Virus record (IMG/VR): IMGVR_UViG_3300043469_002683
Span: 1-26,147 of that record
DNA from: a virus
Reading direction: 5' to 3' (one strand)
Length of the DNA: 26,147 nt
Both the position numbers and the translations under genes were made by a program. Positions 174-20,526 of the stretch are shown piece by piece. Each line of letters starts with the position of its first letter. Within the stretch, counting starts at the first letter, position 1. The notes below the pieces were generated by a model. That model did no database searches. It had not been told where the DNA came from and saw only the letters and a list, made by a program, of their open reading frames with translations.

Positions 174-971
174 TTAAACAGTATTTAAAGGATAGTTGGC
201 TGTTAGTACCTCGGTTTTAAGTTTTCCGGGCTTACCGTAATTATTGGCTATACTTACGCGAAAATCCAACTGAGTTGTATACCAGCCCTGTTTTTTTGTA
301 TATTCCTTTAAAATCGGGCTAGGATAAGAACTAAGCAGGAATTTGCCTTTAATCCGGCTCAATAGTGACAATAGGTTGTCGAAATCCTGAAGGCTATATC
401 CATCATAATGTCCGCAATTAGAATTATAGTAAGGTGGATCACAATAAAAGAAAGCATTTTCAGAATCTCTGCTTTCGATAATTCGCAAAGCATCAGTACA
501 TTCAATTTGAACCTGTTGAAGCCTTATTGCATAATCAACGCTAAAACCGTCTCGCTTATTAGCTACCTTTTTGGAAGTTGAACCTTTTGTAAGATCATAA
601 CCCCAAGCTTTATCTAAGCCTGAAGCAAAGGATTGAGTGGCTAGTACCCATATTGCCCATGCGCGCTTTATTTCGCTAAACATGTCTGGGTTTCCGTTAA
701 TTACTTGCGCCCTTCGATGCAAGTCGCGACTATGAAGACTGACTTGTATCTCTTTTTCCAAAGACACAAAATCGTGCTGCACCACACGGTAAAAGTTAAT
801 CAATTCTCGATTAGTGTCGTTTATTACTTCAACATCTGAAGGTTCTTTAGCAAAGAAAATTGCCGCGCCACCTACAAACGGTTCGCAATAAAGTTTGTGC
901 TCAGGAATAAGCTTAAGAATGGTGGACGCTAACTTTTGCTTGCCTCCATAATAACTGATTGGGGTTTTCAT
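174..971 (-). CDS. dam: D12-class N6-adenine DNA methyltransferase (Dam-like)
   Basis: A 265-aa protein with the signature of D12-class (Dam/DpnM type) adenine methylases: an N-terminal SAM-binding segment YYGGKQKLA at residues 7-15, FVGG at 32-35 and the catalytic DPPYY at 178-182. The length matches the family. It is expected to methylate adenine N6 using S-adenosylmethionine; the usual Dam target is GATC, but specificity cannot be read here. It is the last gene of the minus late block, separated from the tail fibre gene by a strong terminator and closed by its own terminator, so it is probably an independent unit. DNA-modification genes at the end of the late region recall the position of mom in phage Mu. 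A role in evading host restriction is inferred. Confidence 0.93.
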   Translation of the reverse strand: MKTPISYYGGKQKLASTILKLIPEHKLYCEPFVGGAAIFFAKEPSDVEVINDTNRELINFYRVVQHDFVSLEKEIQVSLHSRDLHRRAQVINGNPDMFSEIKRAWAIWVLATQSFASGLDKAWGYDLTKGSTSKKVANKRDGFSVDYAIRLQQVQIECTDALRIIESRDSENAFFYCDPPYYNSNCGHYDGYSLQDFDNLLSLLSRIKGKFLLSSYPSPILKEYTKKQGWYTTQLDFRVSIANNYGKPGKLKTEVLTANYPLNTV

Positions 972-4855: not shown

Positions 4856-5877
4856 TATTTTTCTCTATTGGTTGCGGTGGCATTAGCGCGCCAACCTATG
4901 GTTGCAGTTACTTCATATCCGTTTGTTCCAAAATTGTCAGTCACGGCATCTATATGATATCGGTCGCTAGCTCCGCGAAGCTCGTATTGTTCATCAATCA
5001 GCTCAGCAATCAATCCGTGGAGCACACCTTTGGGTAATCCAAATCCTACAATGTCACCACTGTATCCATCTACTTTAAACTTCTTTAAATCAGCTTCAGC
5101 ATTTTTCCGAAGCGTTGCTTCACTTACATTCATATAGTGTACCGTGCGAATACCTCCATCCGGGTCTCCAACTTCTACTTTTAAATCTTTTCCTTTAACC
5201 ACCTTGCAAATTGCACGCACCTTTATACGCACATCATCAGCACGCATATACTGCAGGCTGTTTTCTTTTACATTCTTTTGGAAATGATATTTAACTGGAG
5301 CAGCAGTCAATAAATCGGCACTGCCATAAGGTTTACCTACTACAAGAACAGGCTCACCGTTCACCATGCGGAAAAACGACTTAAGCCCAAATGTCTTTTC
5401 AATATCCATCAGCGTACCTGCAGCTGTTCCTGTACGCACCACATAGTTAGTGCCAAGGCTTGTGTTCAGTAGATCATACTTATAGCCGGGGCAGGCATAT
5501 TTAATTACATCTTCTAATTTGTGGTTGGCAAATGTCCTTGTCTGTACAGGCATTCTTTTCAAATTCCACATCTCATCCTCGCACTGTATCATAAGCGGCA
5601 TTGTTGGCATCACGCTTCGCGCCACATAGCCTTTAAAGCGAGTAATATTATTGCCATCATATCCTATTCGAATCTCAACCCGGTCGCCTGTTTTAATTAC
5701 ATCAATAATGTTCTTCTCCTCTAGGTCAAGTCCACGCACAAGTATTTTCTTGGCAATTTTAATCGTTGCTGTATCAGTCATTTCGCGCCAATCGCTACGA
5801 ATCTCAACCTCATTGGCAAAGGTCAATTTCAGCGATCCTATTAATATATTACACGTTAGTACAAACACTTTAAACAT
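4855..5877 (-). CDS. Baseplate hub protein, gpD (Mu gp44)-like
   Basis: A 340-aa protein of late-control-D/baseplate-hub type. The beginning (residues 20-60, NEVEIRSDWREMTDTATIKI) and GDRVEIRIGYDG at about 65-76 follow the beta-barrel pattern of hub proteins; residues 110-180 (LEDVIKYACPGYKYD, GTLMDIEKTFGLKSFFR) fit the second domain. The trimeric hub connects the tail tube to the spike. It overlaps the upstream gene by 8 bases and touches the spike gene. The hydrophobic N-terminal residues look like a signal peptide at first sight but are probably the first strands of the barrel. Confidence 0.78.
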   Translation of the reverse strand: MFKVFVLTCNILIGSLKLTFANEVEIRSDWREMTDTATIKIAKKILVRGLDLEEKNIIDVIKTGDRVEIRIGYDGNNITRFKGYVARSVMPTMPLMIQCEDEMWNLKRMPVQTRTFANHKLEDVIKYACPGYKYDLLNTSLGTNYVVRTGTAAGTLMDIEKTFGLKSFFRMVNGEPVLVVGKPYGSADLLTAAPVKYHFQKNVKENSLQYMRADDVRIKVRAICKVVKGKDLKVEVGDPDGGIRTVHYMNVSEATLRKNAEADLKKFKVDGYSGDIVGFGLPKGVLHGLIAELIDEQYELRGASDRYHIDAVTDNFGTNGYEVTATIGWRANATATNREK

Positions 5878-6484
5878 TGTTTAAATCTAAAATAATTGGC
5901 TCATCACTCAAGCAAACCATTTCATATGGCTGCACATTCTCGTATCCTTCCATTGGAGGGAATCGCAAGTCTGTAATCACCACTTCATGAATGTCGAGAT
6001 CATTTAATAAACGCGAATACACGCGCATGCTTTTATTAACCTTAAACACTTGAGACATTTGTTTGCGTGCCTCACGTGGGTACTCTGCCTTTTGATTTTT
6101 AGTGCCGTAATTAATCATAAAACCGCGAAAAGTAATTTGCCAATCACCATCGCTTATCAGCTCCTTTACCGTACCGTTCTTTCCGGGCATAATGGTTTGC
6201 ACAATATTCTTACTAGCACCAATATCCACCACCGAAGCTTCAGGGAGGTACCAAACTTCCGCACCACCAGCTTCTTCTTCACTTCTAAAGCTAAGGCTCG
6301 CATCGCTGATCTGAAACCCAAAACGGTCAAACAAATAAGCTCCTGTACGTTTGTGATACAATCCGCTGCCATCCTTGGTTTTTACTTCAGGCTTCGAATC
6401 CCCAACAAAATACACAGGCACTTGGGTATATACCCCAAATGCCTTCAAAAGTATTTCGTCAAATGATCCTGTAAATTGTGCCAT
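5870..6484 (-). CDS. Tail/baseplate protein, DUF6046-like
   Basis: A 204-aa protein, recalled as resembling the DUF6046 family of Bacteroidota phage tails. Visible features: an N-terminal helix, GLYHKRTGAYLFDRFGFQIS, and a C-terminal beta-rich stretch with FRGFMINYGTKNQ and VVITDLRFPPMEGYENVQPY. It lies between the chaperone and hub genes, where a DNA circularisation/tail connector-like protein (Mu gp43, P2 region) is usually found, so it may be a hub-proximal tail component. Its ATG shares bases with the stop of the frameshifted chaperone extension (TAATG), so ribosomes finishing the frameshift product could re-initiate here. Confidence 0.6.
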   Translation of the reverse strand: MAQFTGSFDEILLKAFGVYTQVPVYFVGDSKPEVKTKDGSGLYHKRTGAYLFDRFGFQISDASLSFRSEEEAGGAEVWYLPEASVVDIGASKNIVQTIMPGKNGTVKELISDGDWQITFRGFMINYGTKNQKAEYPREARKQMSQVFKVNKSMRVYSRLLNDLDIHEVVITDLRFPPMEGYENVQPYEMVCLSDEPIILDLNNV

Positions 6485-6693
6485 TATATTGCCAGCTCTT
6501 CGCCTTTATCTAAGTTAAATCGCTTACTCTCAAAATTCAGCACCCACAAAAGTTGTCGATGCTTTTCGCTCCATTCCTCGTCCGAAAGCTGCTCCGGAAA
6601 TGGTATGTTTAAGTGGTAACTGATCAGTGCGTTAATCTTACGTAGGTAATCTTCGCCCGGCTCCTCCTTGATGGGAGGAGACAGGCCTATAAG
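6484..6693 (-). CDS. Frameshift extension of the tail assembly chaperone (G-GT / E-E' type)
   Basis: A stop-free reading frame in the -1 phase relative to the upstream 112-codon gene, coding 69 residues (LIGLSPPIKEE... to ...DKGEELAI) and ending in TAA at 6484-6486. It contains no ATG, so it cannot easily be made as a separate protein, yet its amino acid composition is protein-like (DYLRKINALISYHL, DEEWSEKHRQLLWVLNFE). It starts exactly at a slippery heptamer. In lambda (G-GT), P2 (E-E') and many tailed phages the chaperone is extended this way by a small fraction of ribosomes. The fused product would be 180 aa. Confidence 0.8.
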   Translation of the reverse strand, partial: LIGLSPPIKEEPGEDYLRKINALISYHLNIPFPEQLSDEEWSEKHRQLLWVLNFESKRFNLDKGEELAI

Positions 6694-6699
6694 TTTTTT
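6661..6699 (-). promoter_or_regulatory. Programmed -1 frameshift signal: A AAA AAC plus stem-loop
   Basis: On the minus strand the zero-frame codons ...GTA AAA AAC TTA TAG contain the canonical slippery heptamer A AAA AAC (6699-6693), two codons before the zero-frame stop. Twelve bases after it is a 7-bp GC-rich stem, CTCCTCC (6680-6674) with GGAGGAG (6667-6661), loop CATCAA. The spacer is somewhat longer than the usual 5-9 nt. Confidence 0.82.
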
Positions 6700-7025
6700 A
6701 CTTCACCTCCAAAGAACTTCACATAGCTGCCAGCTCTGTATTGTGCAGATAATGCATAATCAACATCATCCTCGTTGTCACTCACCAATCGAGCATCGCC
6801 ACCTAGCCATAAGTTGTCGAGCAAGTATTTGCCAGCCACCAATAGGCCTTCGTTGCCACTCTTTACAAATGCCTGCTCAATATGCACGCGCTTATATTTG
6901 CGCATGTAACCGTAGCAGGTTTCCATTTCTGTTTCGATCTCAATTACAAGAACATTTTTGTGCTCGGCTTTCCAAGCGGCTATTTGATCTTCGGTTGCCT
7001 TTCCGACTTCCATTTTTTGGTTCAT
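6687..7025 (-). CDS. Tail assembly chaperone, short form
   Basis: A 112-aa protein placed directly after the tail tube gene, where myophages carry the assembly chaperone. It begins MNQKMEVGKATEDQIAAWKA and has a mostly helical first half with mixed charge, then YVKFFGGEVKNL at the end. It resembles Bacteroidota phage proteins of DUF6848 type as far as I recall. The short form would bind the tape measure in the cytoplasm; the long form, made by -1 frameshifting near codon 111, would recruit tube protein. Unusually the tape measure gene is not next to it but about 12 kb away on the other strand. Confidence 0.68.
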   Translation of the reverse strand: MNQKMEVGKATEDQIAAWKAEHKNVLVIEIETEMETCYGYMRKYKRVHIEQAFVKSGNEGLLVAGKYLLDNLWLGGDARLVSDNEDDVDYALSAQYRAGSYVKFFGGEVKNL

Positions 7026-7037
7026 AAATATAGATAA

Positions 7038-7472
7038 TTACAGAGGTTTCATCCCGTTTACTTTTTGAATGCGCATTGGAACTTTCCAAGCCAATGCATC
7101 CGTAGTGCCAGCTTTCACTTGCAAGCTGCGTTCTTTAGGTTTGCACCCGCGCAATACTTGCTGCATCACAACCGGTAGTTTCTTAAAAGTGATCGTGATG
7201 TCAAATGGATTCAGGTTCAAAACCGATCCGTTTGCGGCAATTTCAAGTCCGATCACTTCATCCATCAGAATGGTTATATCGCCTTCAGCTGTTTCCATGC
7301 CCTCGATGTAATCAATCGGATCTTTTGATCCAATGACATGCACATCGCCAATGTCTTGCTTCGAGCTAAAGTTAATCTCAGTAACTCCGCGCACAATGCG
7401 TCCTAAAAAGAACACTTCTACGTCATTTGCGCTGTAGGCTTTGCCTCCTATTTTTATAGTTTCGTTTGCCAT
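7038..7472 (-). CDS. Tail tube protein
   Basis: A 144-aa protein immediately after the sheath gene. It has the features of tube proteins of Mu/P2-like tails: a beta-rich chain with a loop near the N-terminus (VEVFFLGRIVRGVTEINFSS), a central ILMDEVIGLEI and a C-terminal VPMRIQKVNGM. It forms stacked hexamer rings through which DNA passes. The size is typical (Mu gpM 118, P2 FII 172). The order sheath, tube, chaperone is the conserved myophage order and supports the call strongly. Confidence 0.8.
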   Translation of the reverse strand: MANETIKIGGKAYSANDVEVFFLGRIVRGVTEINFSSKQDIGDVHVIGSKDPIDYIEGMETAEGDITILMDEVIGLEIAANGSVLNLNPFDITITFKKLPVVMQQVLRGCKPKERSLQVKAGTTDALAWKVPMRIQKVNGMKPL

Positions 7473-7478
7473 TATCTA

Positions 7479-8762
7479 TTAAGCATTAAAAGGGTTTGAA
7501 AATCCTGATTTGATGGTGATTCTTCTGCCAATCACCAGCGGCACAAATGAGCACTCAACAACTATCTCTTCACCAGCCAATACATTTATGCCTGGTGGAA
7601 TATATGAGTCAACACCTCCGCTAATCTCAGCGCTCATTTCGTCCTCAATGGCCTTGTTTACGGCTTGCTGCAAGCCTGCTTTAGCCGTTGCGCTCAATTC
7701 GCCAGTTGCAGGATCAGCCTGCAAGCGTGCATTGGTTGTCAACGGCAGCAATGCATTTCTACGTAACAATTGCGCTTTATCAATCACATAGTTTGCTTCT
7801 TTAAATGAGTAATCGTTTGTAATAGGCACACAGGTATGCGAGTCACTTAAGTAGATTCCGGCATACCCGGTAATCTGCTCACACACCACATAACCAAGGT
7901 CGTCAAGGTCGTTGATTGCATCTGCAGGATCGGCAAATGCGCTCACCAAGTTATTGCCCGATAAGCCAGCCGATAAAAACGCGCCTTGCGCATCGTTTTG
8001 CAAGTTCAAAGCTTCAGTAAGCTCACCTACGTTTTGGCTCAATGCAGCCAAGGTATCCAAGCCTACCACATCACCAATTGCAGCATAATCTTCGTAGCGT
8101 GAATCAGCAGCCATCACAGCCGGATCAGCAGCCAATACTACCGATACGCGTGGAGCTGTGCCACTTGTGCGCAAGCTCACCAAATCGCCAACAGTTCCGC
8201 TAAATGCGCGACCTTCAACCCACACGTTCACGAACAAGTAATCTTCGGCCATTAACTCGGCAAGCTCCTGCGCTTTAGCCACTGCAGTAGGCACGGTGTT
8301 ATCAATGCCATTGGCAATGGTTGGTGTATAATCTGCTGCCGGGTTGGCGCAGATACCAAGGCTCACCACTTGACCTGTTTCCAGTTGTGGTTTCATATCG
8401 TTCAGCAACTTTTTAGCATAGTTCTGATCTTTATCAGCAAGCAATGCCAAGGTTTGGTGCGTTGTGCTCACTTTTTGTGGCGCAAACAACACAAACAATG
8501 TCGCACCCGGATTGCGCAAAAAGAAACGCGTCAAATGATGATTAACCAATAAATCATTGGTAGTATCGTATGCCGCATTCACCTTAAGAACATCGGTTAT
8601 ATCACTTGAGCCAGTCAACTTATAGGTTGTACCAAGTTGCAAGCCACCTACTACGGCAATGGCATTCATTACCAGTGCTCCAATCTTATCTGGAGCAGTG
8701 TTTTTACGGCTAAGGTTGCCGTTGGTTCTTTGGGTTTTTGGCCCTTTGTTTCTAATTGTCAT
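7479..8762 (-). CDS. Contractile tail sheath protein (DUF2586-like)
   Basis: A 427-aa protein. It is recalled as DUF2586-type sheath of Bacteroidota phages: an alpha/beta domain with GDVVGLDTLAALS and ITGYAGIYLSDSHTCVPITNDYSF, and the sheath-like C-terminal part DKAQLLRRNALLPLTTNARL (about 325-345), followed by a beta end IVVECSFVPLVIGRRITIKSGF. These match the conserved sheath region in which the long helix and the terminal strands form the interlocking mesh. Contraction drives the tube through the envelope. Its start overlaps the stop of the spanin-like gene by 4 bases (ATGA). Confidence 0.85.
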   Translation of the reverse strand: MTIRNKGPKTQRTNGNLSRKNTAPDKIGALVMNAIAVVGGLQLGTTYKLTGSSDITDVLKVNAAYDTTNDLLVNHHLTRFFLRNPGATLFVLFAPQKVSTTHQTLALLADKDQNYAKKLLNDMKPQLETGQVVSLGICANPAADYTPTIANGIDNTVPTAVAKAQELAELMAEDYLFVNVWVEGRAFSGTVGDLVSLRTSGTAPRVSVVLAADPAVMAADSRYEDYAAIGDVVGLDTLAALSQNVGELTEALNLQNDAQGAFLSAGLSGNNLVSAFADPADAINDLDDLGYVVCEQITGYAGIYLSDSHTCVPITNDYSFKEANYVIDKAQLLRRNALLPLTTNARLQADPATGELSATAKAGLQQAVNKAIEDEMSAEISGGVDSYIPPGINVLAGEEIVVECSFVPLVIGRRITIKSGFSNPFNA

Positions 8763-10129: not shown

Positions 10130-10220
10130 TCCTTTGTTTTTAAATGCCACCCGTGCCGTGGTGGCGCGTACCGTGTTTGTGTGTTTAAATCGCTGTTTTG
10201 CCTTATCTCGCTTAGCGTTG

Positions 10221-10293
10221 TTGCGGGGGTTGGACTCGAACCAACGACCTGCGGATTATGAGTCCGCTGCTCTACCGTCTGCGCTACCCCGCG
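10221..10293 (-). tRNA. tRNA, anticodon CAT (Met or Ile2), with C1-A72 mismatch
   Basis: A complete 73-nt cloverleaf on the minus strand: acceptor CGCGGGG/CCCCGCA (one mismatch, C1-A72), D stem GCGC/GAGC with one G-A mismatch, anticodon stem GCGGA/TCCGC with loop CTCATAA, variable loop AGGTC, T stem GTTGG/CCAAC with TTCGAGT. Discriminator A73; CCA is not encoded (CAA follows). The C1-A72 mismatch is the hallmark of bacterial initiator tRNA, but C11-G24 and A31-T39 are elongator-like, and the anticodon arm resembles tRNA-Ile2 (CAT with lysidine). Its amino acid identity is therefore open. It lies between two late genes in the same direction. Confidence 0.93.
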
Positions 10294-11131: not shown

Positions 11132-12169
11132 TTACGCGTGCGCTTGGATGAGTGCCACCACACCTTTTTGGTCGGTGCGAGCAATACGGCCTCCACAGTT
11201 TACTTTTGCCGAGAACACCGATCCATAGTACTCAGGCTTTTCCAAATCGCTGTAAACTTTGGCAGCGCCTTCAGCTCTGCGCACCATGTTTTTTTGCCAA
11301 ATCAACACAGCCTCGTTATCGGAGCTGGCTGCGGCAGCGCCAAACGCTTTCTTCACCGGAGTTCCTGTATTGTCATACAAGGCCAATCGGCTGCGTTTGT
11401 AAATCTGAATTCCAAGGATTTCACCTACAATACCTTTTTTAATAAGGTCTACTAGTCCACGTTTTTGATAATCGATAAACTGATCGATTTTCAACATTTG
11501 GCCATAGATGCTTGCAGGCACACAAGCAAAACGGTCAGCTTGCGGCACATCCATGCGATCAAGCAAAGTTACTGCATCTACCCAATCTGCGTATTGAATC
11601 AATTTACGATTACCACTTGCACCCGGTGCAGTAGCAACTGTTGTACCACCAGTGGTTCTTACAAAATTGCTTCCCAATGTAGGCATCCATATTTGTCCGA
11701 AATTATCAGCCACGTTTGTATTCAATGTATTGGTGTGATCATACAATACCGACTGACGCTTTGCGTAGCTCAACTGCATCTCTTCTGTATCTTGTATTAA
11801 AATAGGATCAGTTGTAAACTCGTCTACCTCATATTCTTCAGCGTCATCATTACGCTTATTGATTTGAGCAGGTAGAGTCGTCCTATTACGTTCAACATTT
11901 GGTATTGCTCCGGCTTGTGGCAATCTTACGTATCTACCATCTAGCCACATGCTGTCATCCTTCGAATTTTTGTAAAATTCATTATCCGGAAACAGGTTCT
12001 CTTGAATGTCCTTTGTGAACACAGTTACCAGTGGCGATGCCGCGAGTACCACTCCGGTATTGTCAAAGGCAAATTGAAGGATTGCAGGCTCTGCCTGCAC
12101 AGTTACAATGGATACGGTTAGCAACAAAACGCTAAACAACGTGCGGAGGATTGATTTTGAGGTTTTCAT
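11132..12169 (-). CDS. Major capsid protein with signal-like leader
   Basis: A 345-aa protein read as a major capsid protein of HK97 type: after the prohead protease/scaffold gene, with LPQAGAIPNVERNRTTLPAQ in the N-arm region, IWMPTLGSN and a C-terminal domain with DWVDAVTLLDRMDVPQADRF, VGEILGIQIYKRSR, and SVFSAKVNCGGRIARTDQKG. The last parts match capsids of Bacteroidota phages. Residues 1-26 look like a Sec signal peptide (K3, K5, R9, hydrophobic 11-23, VQA before E27), which is unexpected for a capsid. The segment may instead be a delta-like leader removed by the protease. No other start codon near by gives a better N-terminus. Confidence 0.75.
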   Translation of the reverse strand: MKTSKSILRTLFSVLLLTVSIVTVQAEPAILQFAFDNTGVVLAASPLVTVFTKDIQENLFPDNEFYKNSKDDSMWLDGRYVRLPQAGAIPNVERNRTTLPAQINKRNDDAEEYEVDEFTTDPILIQDTEEMQLSYAKRQSVLYDHTNTLNTNVADNFGQIWMPTLGSNFVRTTGGTTVATAPGASGNRKLIQYADWVDAVTLLDRMDVPQADRFACVPASIYGQMLKIDQFIDYQKRGLVDLIKKGIVGEILGIQIYKRSRLALYDNTGTPVKKAFGAAAASSDNEAVLIWQKNMVRRAEGAAKVYSDLEKPEYYGSVFSAKVNCGGRIARTDQKGVVALIQAHA

Positions 12170-12228
12170 TTATCTGTTTTTGAATTAATTACTTTGGATG
12201 TTTCTTTTGATTACTATTTATGATCAGA

Positions 12229-12696
12229 TTAAGCCTCGGTATAATCAGCTCCGTACTCGTTTTTGAACAAGTTTTTAAACTGCTCAAAATCGTTAGCTTT
12301 CATATCGCGCAACTCCTTTTCAGTGTGCTGGCTAAACTTCTTTGCAGGTGCTGCAGGTGCAGCTCCAAACGCTCCGGTTACAATTACCTGCTTAGGATCA
12401 ATGCGGCCTTGTAAGCCATCAAACAAATCCTTCACGGCATCATAATCATTAGCAGCCATTGCTACATATTTCTCTTTGCTTTCGGCTTTCACCTTGCCAT
12501 CTTTAATGGCAGCCTCTACCAGTGTGGTAGCTTTATCTTTCGCAGCATTTTCTACTAAGCTCTCAAGCTCGGTAATGCGTGCGTCTTTCGCCTTCATAGC
12601 TGCATCTACCACGGCAGATACTTGCTCATCTGTTGACTCATCGGTCAACGTGTGCTGCACTTTGTAAGCGTTTAGCACAAGGATGGTTTTCTTCAT
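12229..12696 (-). CDS. Possible nested scaffold protein, in frame with the protease
   Basis: An ATG at 12696 inside the protease frame would start a 155-aa protein (MKKTILVLNAYKVQ...) that covers only the scaffold region. The codon falls at the protease/scaffold boundary, and an A-rich stretch GAAATAAAC precedes it, as at many Bacteroidota start sites. Mu gpZ and lambda Nu3 are made in the same manner. Independent translation is inferred; no more direct signal is visible. Confidence 0.45.
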   Translation of the reverse strand: MKKTILVLNAYKVQHTLTDESTDEQVSAVVDAAMKAKDARITELESLVENAAKDKATTLVEAAIKDGKVKAESKEKYVAMAANDYDAVKDLFDGLQGRIDPKQVIVTGAFGAAPAAPAKKFSQHTEKELRDMKANDFEQFKNLFKNEYGADYTEA

Positions 12697-13338
12697 GTTT
12701 ATTTCAGATTTAAATGGATGTAAAATGGAATTGTAAAAAGCTAAGGCATCAGCTTCTTGTGTGAATTGTTGTTTAGGTTTGGCAACTTTGGCATCGCTCT
12801 TAATCACATAATCGCATAATCCGGCTGCTACAGCCTCGTTGGCATCAAACCACTTCATTACTCCTGGTTTAAACCACTTGGCCACTACTTCATCAGTTTG
12901 TCCGGTACGATTCTTTATAATGTTTAGTGCTTTCTTTTCGAGTTTCTCGGCAAAATCAGCCTGCGAACGTACGTGATCTGCTTCGCCATGCACACCAACT
13001 TGCGCCTTATGGGTCATGAATGATGCATTATCATGAATACCTAGCTGTCCGGGACTGGCTGCTTGCGACAATATACCTCCCATACTGGCAGCCATACCTA
13101 CTATTTCTACCTCAATTATCATTTGGCTGGCTTTCAACAAATCGTAATAGGCAAATCCGTGCATCATATTACCACCACCCGAATTAATCAGCATTTTGCA
13201 GCGTTTTGCTCCGCTGTCTATCGTCTTCTCAAGCGCAGCACGAAAGCCTTTGTAATCGGCATCATCGCCTATAATACCTTCTACATAAATGTGGGGTACT
13301 GAGTTGCGCACTTGTATGTGATAGAATGTTCCTTTCAT
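12229..13338 (-). CDS. ClpP-type prohead protease fused to scaffold domain
   Basis: A 369-aa protein from ATG at 13338; the frame is open further to a GTG at 13365. Residues 1-195 form a ClpP-like/S14 fold: LINSGGG (about 50-56), the nucleophile Ser85 in MAASMGG, the catalytic-type His110 in FMTHKA, and the family's NRTGQTDEVV helix. Residues about 215-369 are helical and charged like a scaffold (DARITELESLVENAAK, KELRDMKANDFEQFKNLF). The protease would cut scaffold and capsid leader after assembly. This layout equals Mu gpI with its nested scaffold gpZ. It is the first gene of the minus block, next to the divergent region. Confidence 0.83.
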   Translation of the reverse strand: MKGTFYHIQVRNSVPHIYVEGIIGDDADYKGFRAALEKTIDSGAKRCKMLINSGGGNMMHGFAYYDLLKASQMIIEVEIVGMAASMGGILSQAASPGQLGIHDNASFMTHKAQVGVHGEADHVRSQADFAEKLEKKALNIIKNRTGQTDEVVAKWFKPGVMKWFDANEAVAAGLCDYVIKSDAKVAKPKQQFTQEADALAFYNSILHPFKSEINMKKTILVLNAYKVQHTLTDESTDEQVSAVVDAAMKAKDARITELESLVENAAKDKATTLVEAAIKDGKVKAESKEKYVAMAANDYDAVKDLFDGLQGRIDPKQVIVTGAFGAAPAAPAKKFSQHTEKELRDMKANDFEQFKNLFKNEYGADYTEA

Positions 13339-13502
13339 GATCGTGTCTCTCGCGTTTCGTTGCACAAATTTGAAGTAAAGTATTGCTTTAATAAAACGAT
13401 ACTAAAACGCTGTAAATCAATTTTAATACAGCGTGTATATTTTCATCCATTGTGTTTTCATACTTCGTGCTTTACGCGCGTATTCTTCGCAATTTTGTGA
13501 GC
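13339..13502. promoter_or_regulatory. Divergent late control region
   Basis: This gap separates the minus structural block from the plus packaging block, so promoters for both should lie here. It is AT-rich and contains an inverted repeat CGCTGTA (13408-13414) / TACAGCG (13427-13433), a candidate activator or operator site midway between both starts. I see no convincing match to the Bacteroidota promoter pattern TTTG...TAnnTTTG; the nearest on the minus strand is TACTTTAC. Confidence 0.55.
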
Positions 13503-13949
13503 ATGAAAACGAAGGAGAGACGAGCACGCAAAACCAAATCAGAGCTAGAAGCCCTCAAATCGCTGGCATATGAATGGTTTATGAACGCTGACAAAACCCA
13601 AAAGGAAATAGCCGAAATCATTGGAGTAAGCGAAGCCACCATGAGCACATGGTCAAGCGATGGCCGTTGGGATGAGCTGAAGGCATTGGAGCGCGCAAGC
13701 CGTGGTGGCACGGTGCGCAACCTCATGAAGCGCATTTTCGAAGAGTCGCAAAAAGATGATCCGGATGCAGACAAAATCAGCAAACTAGCGGCTTCGCTCG
13801 AAAAGTTAGAGCAAAAGAAAGTAACCGTACCAAACATCATCAGTGTGTTTATGGGCTTCGGCTCATGGCTGTATAAGGTTGATCCTGACTTGGCCAAAAA
13901 GATTACCAGCTACCAAAATCAATACGTAGAAGAAAAGATAAGTGAGTAA
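13503..13949 (+). CDS. Small terminase-like DNA-binding protein (Mu gp27/DUF1804-like)
   Basis: A 148-aa protein from ATG at 13503 (MKTKERRARKTK); the frame is open upstream but an earlier start would add a hydrophobic stretch unlike the family. Residues 27-60 form a helix-turn-helix, KTQKEIAEIIGVSEATMSTW, followed by a basic helical region and SLEKLEQKKVTVPNI. This matches DUF1804/gp27-type proteins that select DNA for packaging with the large subunit. It is the first gene of the plus block and overlaps the large terminase by 8 bases, implying coupled translation. Confidence 0.78.
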   Translation: MKTKERRARKTKSELEALKSLAYEWFMNADKTQKEIAEIIGVSEATMSTWSSDGRWDELKALERASRGGTVRNLMKRIFEESQKDDPDADKISKLAASLEKLEQKKVTVPNIISVFMGFGSWLYKVDPDLAKKITSYQNQYVEEKISE

Positions 13950-15543
13950 CCGTATAGATCATATTACTAAGCGCAGTCTTGAGGACTGGAAAAAGCATTG
14001 CGAACTGATTGCAAACAGCTCCAGCGTGCCTATGGCTGAAACCAAGGCCGAGCAGGCGCAGCGCATTGCCAAAGCCAAGCGCGAATACGGCTACTTTGTA
14101 GCTACGTACTTCCCCATTTATGCAGATGCACCCTGCGCCAAGTTTCACTTGGATGCAGCCAACAGCATACTCAAGCAGCCCAACCGAATTAGCGTATTGG
14201 AATGGCCACGCGAACACGCTAAGTCCGTTCACGCCACCATTATGATTCCTATGTGGCTCCTCATTCACGAAGAGCTGGACGGAATGATTTTAATGGGCAA
14301 AAATGCCGATGATGCTTGCAACCTGTTGTCTGATATTCAGGCGCAGCTGCAAAACAACCTGTTATTCATTAACGACTACGGCCAGCAGTTTGCCTTTGGC
14401 GATTGGGCCGAAGGTGATTTTACAACCAAGGACGGAATCCGATTCTTGGCCATTGGCCGCGATAAGTCGCCACGTGGTGCGCGTAAAGGTGCCAAGCGAC
14501 CAAACTATGCAGTGATTGATGATATTGATGACGAGGAGATCGTATTGAACCAAAAGCGCGTGAAGAACGTAATCAAACGCATCCTTGGTGGTCTATTCTT
14601 TGCATTGCAAACAAAGAAGTGGCGAATGGTGGTGGCAGGTAACCGCATTCACTCACAATCCATTCTTGCGCACATGGTGGGCGATACAAAGCCAAATGCA
14701 CCTAAGCGCAAAAATATATACCACAGTAAGATTTTCGCTATTGATCCCAAAACCGGAATACCAGCATGGCCTGAGCGTTACTCGCTTAAAGATATCAACG
14801 ACAAGATTGATGCCGCAGGGCCTACCATTGGCCGTCAGGAGTTATTCCATGAAACCCACGTTGAGGGCGAAATCTTTAAGGATAAATACTTCAAGTGGAA
14901 AAAGATGCCAAAGGTGAACTGGAAGAACTACGAAGTAATCATTGGTTATATTGATCCTTCTTTTGAAAACAATCCAACCAGCGATTATAAAGCCGCTCGC
15001 GTATGGGCCAAAAGGAGCGAAGAGCGCCACTGCTTAAAGTCATTCGTGCGCAAGTGCGAAATGATGGAAGTGTTCGACTTCTGCTCACGATTTGAAGATT
15101 CACTTCCCGAAGATGTGGCCGTACAATGGTTGATCGAGGAGCAGTTCTTTAACCGACCCATTAAAGAGGCCTTGGCCATGCACAATAAGAAGCGCGCAAA
15201 GCTCAAAAAACGCACCTTATCCATCACCATTGATAGCCGCACCAAGCCAAATAAGTACACACGTATTGTGCGGATGGAGCCTCAGTATTATGAAGGCAAT
15301 GTGTACTACAATATTGACGAGATGCACGATAGCGATATGGTGGAGGGCAATAATCAGCTGAAGGGAATTGAACCCGGATACAAAGGCCCTGACGATAGCC
15401 CCGATGCGGATGAGGGTGCTTGGAATGAGCTGGATAAGCACAGCCTACTCAACCAAGGCGAAGCGCGAACTGGCAAACGCACACGCAGTAGACGCAAAAT
15501 GGATGCTGACGAAATATATCACAATTCAAAATCATCATGGTAA
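13942..15543 (+). CDS. terL: Terminase large subunit (Mu gp28-like)
   Basis: A 533-aa packaging motor starting at GTG inside the end of the small subunit gene. The ATPase domain has an atypical Walker A, WPREHAKS at 88-95, a Walker B VIDDIDDEE at 191-199, and the following coupling region VVAGNRIHSQS. The nuclease domain begins at IGYIDPSFEN with Asp338 as first metal ligand, later SITIDSRTKPNK and a final acidic PDADEGAW. It packs DNA into the prohead and cuts it. The size and order fit gp28-like terminases of Mu-type phages. Confidence 0.92.
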   Translation: MSNRIDHITKRSLEDWKKHCELIANSSSVPMAETKAEQAQRIAKAKREYGYFVATYFPIYADAPCAKFHLDAANSILKQPNRISVLEWPREHAKSVHATIMIPMWLLIHEELDGMILMGKNADDACNLLSDIQAQLQNNLLFINDYGQQFAFGDWAEGDFTTKDGIRFLAIGRDKSPRGARKGAKRPNYAVIDDIDDEEIVLNQKRVKNVIKRILGGLFFALQTKKWRMVVAGNRIHSQSILAHMVGDTKPNAPKRKNIYHSKIFAIDPKTGIPAWPERYSLKDINDKIDAAGPTIGRQELFHETHVEGEIFKDKYFKWKKMPKVNWKNYEVIIGYIDPSFENNPTSDYKAARVWAKRSEERHCLKSFVRKCEMMEVFDFCSRFEDSLPEDVAVQWLIEEQFFNRPIKEALAMHNKKRAKLKKRTLSITIDSRTKPNKYTRIVRMEPQYYEGNVYYNIDEMHDSDMVEGNNQLKGIEPGYKGPDDSPDADEGAWNELDKHSLLNQGEARTGKRTRSRRKMDADEIYHNSKSSW

Positions 15544-18951: not shown

Positions 18952-20526
18952 ATGAGCAGACAAGGACTTGAATATATCATAAACTTACGTGGCGACAACT
19001 TTTCACGAGGCATGGAACGCGCCAAAAGCCAAACTGCAGGGTTGGATTCGCAGTTTAAAAAACTAGGCGCAACCATAGCCGGAGCATTTGCCGTGAGCCA
19101 AATTACTGCATTTGGCCAAGAGGCTGTTCTCACCAGTGCCAAGGTAGAAGGTATGGAACGCGCCATCAAATTTGCAGGAGGGCAAGAAGGTGGTAAAAAC
19201 CTCGAATACGTGCGCTCCGAAGCCAACAGGTTAGGTCTTGACCTAATGGCTGCCGAAACGGGATACCGCACACTCTCAGGAGCCATGATGGGCAACGTAG
19301 AACTTGCTAAACAACAGAATACTATTTATACTGCCGTTTCTAGCGCCATATCTGCCCTTGGTGGCGATAATGAGCAACTGGAGGGATCAATACTTGCTCT
19401 TTCGCAAATGGCCTCCAAAGGCACTGTAAATGCTGAAGAATTAAGAGGTCAATTGGGCGAGCGCTTACCGGGTGCTTTTAGCATAGCGGCACGCGCAATG
19501 AATATGACTGAGCAGCAACTTGGGAAAGCGATGGAAAAAGGTGAAGTAATGGCAACAGACTTTTTGCCAAGATTTGCCCGCGAGCTACAAAATACTTTTG
19601 GCGATCAAGCCACGGCCAATGCCAACAGCTTTACAGCACAAATGAACAGGGCTAATAATGCCATGCTGGATCAAACCACCACACTCGGCACCATGCTACA
19701 GCCTGCTTACCTTAGCTGGCTCAATGCCAAATCACAAGAAATTGGTTTGTTGACATCCGCTGTCAAATTCATTGACGAAAATCGCGCAGGCTTTACAGCC
19801 TTAGCAGTTGGTGTTGGTGCAGTAGCCACTGCATATGGTTTGTATGTGGGCATTCAAAAGGGAGCGCTAATTCTTCAGGCTATTCAATACACTTCAGGCT
19901 TACTTCACCTTGCATATTTGGAAGGTTTAAGCCGTGGATTGGGCAAAGCTGCAGCCATGCAACACGCATTAAATGTGGCAATGAATTTGAACCCGATAGG
20001 GCTTATCGTTACCGGAATAGGATTGCTAGCTGCAGGTTTGTATTACGCATGGCAAAAAAGCGAAACTTTCCGTGGCGCACTCAAAGGATTGTGGGCAGCC
20101 ACTCAAGAACTTCTTAGTCCTGTTATGGGGCTTGGCAAAGCAGTCATAGGATTATTCACTGCTAATCCTGCGATGTTGCTTCAGGGATTATCTGAAGCCA
20201 AGCAAGCATTTGCCAATATGGATGTAAAAGGAGCGTTTAGCAAAGCCTACAATGCCGAAATTGGCACCGGAGATAAAACCGCAACCGACAAACCCGGACT
20301 TGCCACTGCTGGAGCTATGAAGGGTAAACAAGGAGCTGCGGCAGGTGGCGCAGCAGGGAAAGCAAGCGCAGGCACTAGTGTTCGTAATGTCAATGTGAAC
20401 ATAAAGAACTTGGTGGAGCGATTAGAGATTAAAGCGAGCACAGTCAAAGAATCATCGCAGAATCTTCGCAAGGAGATTGCGAGCATATTGATAGATGCCA
20501 CGCGCGATTACGAGCAAGCTCTTTAA
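18952..20526 (+). CDS. Tail tape measure protein
   Basis: A 524-aa protein with the tape-measure N-terminal domain (residues about 45-230): GQEAVLTSAKVEGMERAIKF, LGLDLMAAETGYRTLSGAM, and LRGQLGERLPGAFSIAARAM. Residues 275-375 contain two membrane-like hydrophobic stretches (ALAVGVGAVATAYGLYVG; GLIVTGIGLLAAGLYYAW), then a low-complexity K/G/A-rich region and a helical end. It sets tail length and crosses the membrane on infection; 524 residues imply a short tail. The gene lies in the packaging block on the strand opposite to sheath, tube and chaperone. It is flanked by gaps of 85 and 62 bp instead of overlaps. Confidence 0.85.
   Translation: MSRQGLEYIINLRGDNFSRGMERAKSQTAGLDSQFKKLGATIAGAFAVSQITAFGQEAVLTSAKVEGMERAIKFAGGQEGGKNLEYVRSEANRLGLDLMAAETGYRTLSGAMMGNVELAKQQNTIYTAVSSAISALGGDNEQLEGSILALSQMASKGTVNAEELRGQLGERLPGAFSIAARAMNMTEQQLGKAMEKGEVMATDFLPRFARELQNTFGDQATANANSFTAQMNRANNAMLDQTTTLGTMLQPAYLSWLNAKSQEIGLLTSAVKFIDENRAGFTALAVGVGAVATAYGLYVGIQKGALILQAIQYTSGLLHLAYLEGLSRGLGKAAAMQHALNVAMNLNPIGLIVTGIGLLAAGLYYAWQKSETFRGALKGLWAATQELLSPVMGLGKAVIGLFTANPAMLLQGLSEAKQAFANMDVKGAFSKAYNAEIGTGDKTATDKPGLATAGAMKGKQGAAAGGAAGKASAGTSVRNVNVNIKNLVERLEIKASTVKESSQNLRKEIASILIDATRDYEQAL

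Follow-up and report, generated by a model that had tools for sequence, protein, structure and literature searches.

Gene organization of the tail module

The stretch of DNA analysed here, referred to below as the window, comprises positions 1–26,147 of the IMG/VR record IMGVR_UViG_3300043469_002683 and encodes a head of Mu-like type together with a contractile tail. The genes of sheath, tube and tail assembly chaperone follow each other in this order on the minus strand. The sheath gene (7479..8762, DUF2586) was assigned by the matches of its product to PF10758 (E 1.3e-30) and to the tail sheath family PHROG_907. The gene that adjoins it and directly precedes the chaperone gene (7038..7472) encodes a probable tail tube protein; this assignment is based on its position and on a match to PHROG_4579, tail protein (E 1.1e-7), and the same product also matches PHROG_9206, labelled as major head protein (E 2.5e-12). 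The G-like, 112 aa chaperone is encoded in the zero frame at 6687..7025, and is followed on the same strand by an extension in the -1 frame (6484..6693) and by the gene of a DUF6046/baseplate hub protein (5870..6484).

The tape measure protein gene (PF20155 TMP_3, E 1.1e-19) is not immediately 3' of the chaperone gene; it lies on the plus strand, at 18952..20526, in a divergent terminase-portal operon. The same divergent layout is found in Flavobacterium phage fF4: in both cases the genes of terminase, portal, MuF-like protein and tape measure occupy one strand, and those of protease, capsid, sheath, tube, chaperone and hub occupy the other, some of these names being assigned by position or by eye. 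The fF4 tape measure gene (12078–14078) is likewise in the terminase-portal operon. A nucleotide search of phages with the terminase half of the window returned no match. The window also contains, amid the structural genes, a tRNA-Met gene with the anticodon CAT (10220–10293, minus strand; ARAGORN, Rfam tRNA 62 bits) and, near the contig edge, an ORF resembling DNA adenine methyltransferase (174–971, minus strand; FVGGAAIFF and CDPPYY recognized by eye).

Predicted fold of the zero-frame protein

Searches of Pfam with the zero-frame protein and with the extension indicated no usable family; a weak match to DUF6848 appeared in two relatives only. The profile of PHROG_19076, annotated as 'unknown function', matches 50 of the 51 members of the chaperone family that were compared, including the window protein (E 1.3e-7). 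The AlphaFold2 model of the latter, obtained with an alignment of 51 relatives, has a pLDDT of 93.7. In the comparison with solved structures 3FGX ranked first (Z 7.0), YqbN (3KLU) second (Z 3.8), and gp13 of HK97 (2OB9) fifth, with a weak Z of 2.4; all three are phage tail assembly chaperones (PMC9603447). The Z values are moderate, and the appearance of three entries from one small family among the nine matches listed is unlikely to be due to chance. Additionally, the chaperone family profile matches 3FGX by sequence (E 3.6e-4). The assignment of the zero-frame protein as a tail assembly chaperone is thus supported by its predicted fold, by the profile match to 3FGX and by the place of its gene after those of sheath and tube.

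The slip site, the extension and the hairpin of the window

The 3' end of the chaperone gene reads GTA AAA AAC TTA TAG. It contains the slippery heptamer A_AAA_AAC in phase (6693..6699, minus strand), the slip codons of which end one sense codon (TTA) ahead of the stop codon TAG (6687..6689). The -1 frame is open from 6693 to 6487 (69 codons), has no ATG of its own and ends with TAA (6486..6484), a stop codon that shares TAATG with the start of the hub gene. The predicted frameshift product (GT-like, 6484..7025) is 180 aa long. Each of these elements, namely the in-phase heptamer near the stop, the 69-codon frame without ATG, the shared TAATG and the 180 aa fusion, had been described in an initial annotation made from this sequence, and all were confirmed. 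The 7-bp GC-rich stem placed by that annotation 12 nt downstream of the heptamer is also present, but it forms only the upper half of a longer, interrupted stem of 12 bp, which starts 6 nt past the heptamer. The complete hairpin, which is the presumed stimulator (6655..6686, minus strand), consists of 5 bp, a 1x1 mismatch and 7 bp, with a loop of 6 nt.

The heptamer alone is not unusual, as A_AAA_AAC occurs 11 times in the window vs. 9.8 expected; what is unusual is its phase, its place at the gene end, the accompanying hairpin and the conservation. The energy of the hairpin is -22.6 kcal/mol vs. a mean of about -7.2 kcal/mol for versions with synonymous codons (z of -5.3 and -4.9 in two runs), and none of the 200–300 randomised versions was as stable. 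Equally stable folds were found in 12 of the 17,402 sliding 45-nt segments of both strands, neighbouring segments overlapping each other.

The extension is predicted to fold into a two-helix domain (pLDDT 92.3). A PDB search with its profile and model gave no credible relative, which does not exclude that one exists.

Conservation of the -1 arrangement

The first tblastn search with the extension matched phages of the Winoviridae that infect Flavobacterium and Winogradskyella. Scans of viral contigs with single proteins recovered no close relatives; an alignment of these phage extensions, used as a query, recovered the 80 IMG/VR loci analysed here. At the threshold of 70% identity they form, together with the window, 49 clusters (the window and 48 others). 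In all 80 loci the extension lies in the -1 frame relative to the homologous gene, and in none of them is it in frame or in the +1 frame; in 78 loci the -1 relation and an intact extension were established by a script, and L036 and L037 were assigned by hand from their sequences. Six Bacteroidota genome contigs, including those of Chryseobacterium soli and C. indologenes, have the same arrangement, as do the isolated phages Peternella, FPSV-S1 and fF4. The chaperone and the extension encoded by these phages (Peternella_1, FPSV-S1 and fF4), as well as by lotta8/pippi8, are homologous to those of the window. In the published phages that were inspected the extension is unannotated or labelled as hypothetical. 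The papers on Winoviridae, with Peternella (PMC8776804), and on Hankyphage (PMC12135933) mention neither a frameshift nor a chaperone, and the open-access literature searched yielded no paper on a frameshifted tail assembly chaperone in Flavobacterium phages.

In relatives with measurable dS, the part of the extension past the zero-frame stop has a dN/dS of 0.03–0.25, which indicates that purifying selection acts on it. Homologs in Bacteroidota phages and purifying selection in them are what the initial annotation had proposed to look for, and both were found.

In contrast to the window and fF4, Peternella and many other relatives have the tape measure gene right after the extension, which is the usual, though not a defining, gene order for chaperones of the G/GT type. 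A search of five relatives with TMP_3 had low sensitivity, as the tape measure gene annotated in Peternella escaped it and the fF4 match fell below the cut-off. The place of the tape measure gene differs between relatives, and thus the gene order has changed while the frameshift was kept.

Slip sites in relatives

In many relatives A_AAA_AAC or A_AAA_AAG occupies the position that the heptamer has in the window. Across the 49 clusters we found A_AAA_AAG in 13, A_AAA_AAC in 8, A_AAA_AAA or A_AAA_AAT in 4, G_GGA_AAG in 2 and A_AAT_TTT in 1. An in-phase X_XXY_YYZ site within the last six codons is present in 28 of the 49 clusters vs. 34 of the 429 ends of other ORFs in these loci. In most of the remaining clusters the site is weaker, being A_AAG or A_AAC after GTA or GAA; A_AAG tetramers with partial re-pairing in the P site are documented shift sites (PMC5009743). 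The distance from the slip site to the stop is usually exactly one codon. Among the isolated phages, in-phase A_AAA_AAG is present in FPSV-S1 and Peternella, and G_GGA_AAG in fF4. A Shine-Dalgarno-like GAGG was also seen 5' of the slip site in relatives; Glu-Ala codons alone could yield it.

The closest relatives of the window, L007–L009, have no A-run and read CTG (or TTG) GGG GAR GTY TAG; GGG GAR GTY TAG is also found at the chaperone stop of the Chryseobacterium loci L087–L089, which have no A-rich slip site. In L014 and L025, representing two clusters, no slip site could be recognized. Of the two elements whose conservation the initial annotation had proposed as a test, the -1 frame is retained in all relatives, whereas the heptamer varies.

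RNA structure downstream of the stop

Compared with synonymous randomisation, the sequence past the stop is significantly structured (p <= 0.01) in 23 of the 49 clusters, as judged by the better of two segments, 45 nt or 90 nt, without correction. The signal weakens into the extension, from a mean z of about -1.1 at its start to about -0.2 to 0 from 56 nt. A strong hairpin is retained in L008 and L009 despite their G_GGG_GAR site. A 7-bp stem with two compensatory pairs is present in L044, L053 and L086, and in L013 and L016–L018 97% of cells pair (with the pairing slid by -1 column), with one compensatory pair.

Lineages with weak slip sites have longer structures (z of -8.5 in L083 and -8.3 in L068). 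In L068, L083, L036, L067, L038 and similar loci a long branched stem was observed between the EAAEV and DPDSL codons, in the first ~90 nt past the stop; it has no match in Rfam. When the structure derived from L068 was imposed on 21 sequences, 70% of cells paired vs. 32–42% in slid controls, and the covariation score was moderate (0.184 vs. 0.067–0.131). RNAalifold found no consensus in the same alignment of weak-site relatives, and because of this the ~85-nt structured RNA is regarded by us only as a lead.

A possible, though rather doubtful, explanation of these patterns is that the family keeps the -1 extension while its slip site and stimulator have been replaced several times. Tentatively, the heptamer with a compact hairpin would then characterize the lineage of the window, G_GTA_AAC and G_GAA_AAG with the ~85-nt branched stem would characterize the weak-site relatives, and G_GGG_GAR the nearest relatives of the window. 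The branched stem, if it is a true stimulator, would be of unusual size for bacterial frameshifting.

Discussion

Results of our analysis indicate, with little room for doubt, that a Winoviridae-like contractile-tailed phage of Bacteroidota carries a tail assembly chaperone gene of G/GT type with a -1 frameshift. Our data show the elements in the sequence, the conservation of the -1 arrangement, the purifying selection that acts on the extension and the fold of a chaperone. That frameshifting occurs, how efficient it is and how the two products share their tasks is inferred. Most ribosomes would halt at TAG to give the 112 aa chaperone. A minority, delayed by the hairpin while AAA occupies the P site and AAC the A site, would slip one base back and synthesize the 180 aa protein with the added two-helix domain. 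By analogy to gpG and gpGT of lambda, coating of the tape measure protein would be the task of the short form, and the extension present in the long form would bring in tube subunits.

The lambda G/GT tail assembly chaperone, with its -1 frameshift, was reportedly described by Levin in 1993, and the slip site of lambda is G_GGA_AAG. The locus of the window resembles it in the short chaperone and its -1 extended form, in the shift near the gene end and in the location between the tube gene and later tail genes. Unlike lambda, the window uses A_AAA_AAC and its tape measure gene is not adjacent, and no family-level sequence match between the two was found. With P2 (E and E+E', annotated in NC_001895 as a joined CDS) it shares the contractile tail and the late -1 shift; however, the tape measure gene T of P2 overlaps the end of E', and a comparison of the extension with E' revealed no significant similarity (hhalign probability 0.8%). 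The proposal of a lambda- or P2-like chaperone next to the tube gene is upheld as to the fold, the adjacency to the tube gene and the conserved -1 frame; the position of the tape measure gene differs from that in lambda and P2. The programmed -1 shift itself was in all probability interpreted correctly, as all 80 relatives are -1, most of them have a site prone to shifting one codon ahead of the stop, and purifying selection acts on the extension. In the case of Mu, to which the phage of the window is similar in having a frameshifted chaperone gene, the shift is -2 (PMC5009743). A -2 route of this type, equivalent to the +1 frame, was rejected, since the window and all 80 loci use -1.

Several points count against the G/GT reading: the weakness of A_AAA_AAC in E. 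coli, where it is much less slippery than A_AAA_AAG (PMC5009743), the G_GGG_GAR of L007–L009, the siteless L014 and L025, the separate tape measure gene and the Z of 2.4 for the HK97 protein. The most probable alternative, which we nevertheless consider very improbable, is termination-coupled re-initiation in the -1 frame, which would yield the extension as a small protein of its own, with no fusion. The zero-frame stop does fall within the -1 frame, the 3' arm of the hairpin (AAGGAGGAG) looks Shine-Dalgarno-like, and fF4 has an annotated 48 aa ORF at the extension. In the window, however, the lack of ATG in the -1 frame is accompanied by the lack of any ATG, GTG or TTG close after the Shine-Dalgarno-like stretch, the conserved residues of the extension in relatives start close to the slip site, 5' of the start annotated for the fF4 ORF, and slip-type motifs stand at a fixed distance ahead of the stop.

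Still less probable is a shifted message arising by transcriptional slippage. The window does have a run of six A, and longer runs occur in L039, L059, L078 and L085, but a run of this length is short for slippage by RNA polymerase if it has only six A, many relatives have just three or four A (GTA AAC, GAA AAG) or GGGAAAG, and the downstream structure fits ribosomal frameshifting. That the gene is broken or contains a homopolymer sequencing error, with nothing programmed, can practically be dismissed: although the break falls at an A-run of an IMG/VR contig, it recurs at an identical position in the 80 loci as well as in isolated phages, some of the slip sites are not homopolymeric, and no in-frame fused copy was found in close relatives.

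A -1 frameshift in the chaperone gene has long been known in lambda and many tailed phages, according to those parts of PMC3711429 and PMC5009743 that refer to Xu 2004. What appears to be new here is the membership of this family and not the mechanism, which in the case of lambda G/GT and P2 E/E' is textbook knowledge. PHROG_19076 can be renamed as tail assembly chaperone, and the extension gains a function in published Winoviridae phages and in many gut and environmental relatives, by which the maps of their tail genes are corrected. The separation of the chaperone and tape measure genes implies that their adjacency is not required. Judging from the sequences, Bacteroidota phages seem to make repeated use of A_AAA_AAC, which is weak in E. 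coli. With its large number of natural slip sites at a single orthologous position, the family lends itself to studies of frameshifting on Bacteroidota ribosomes.
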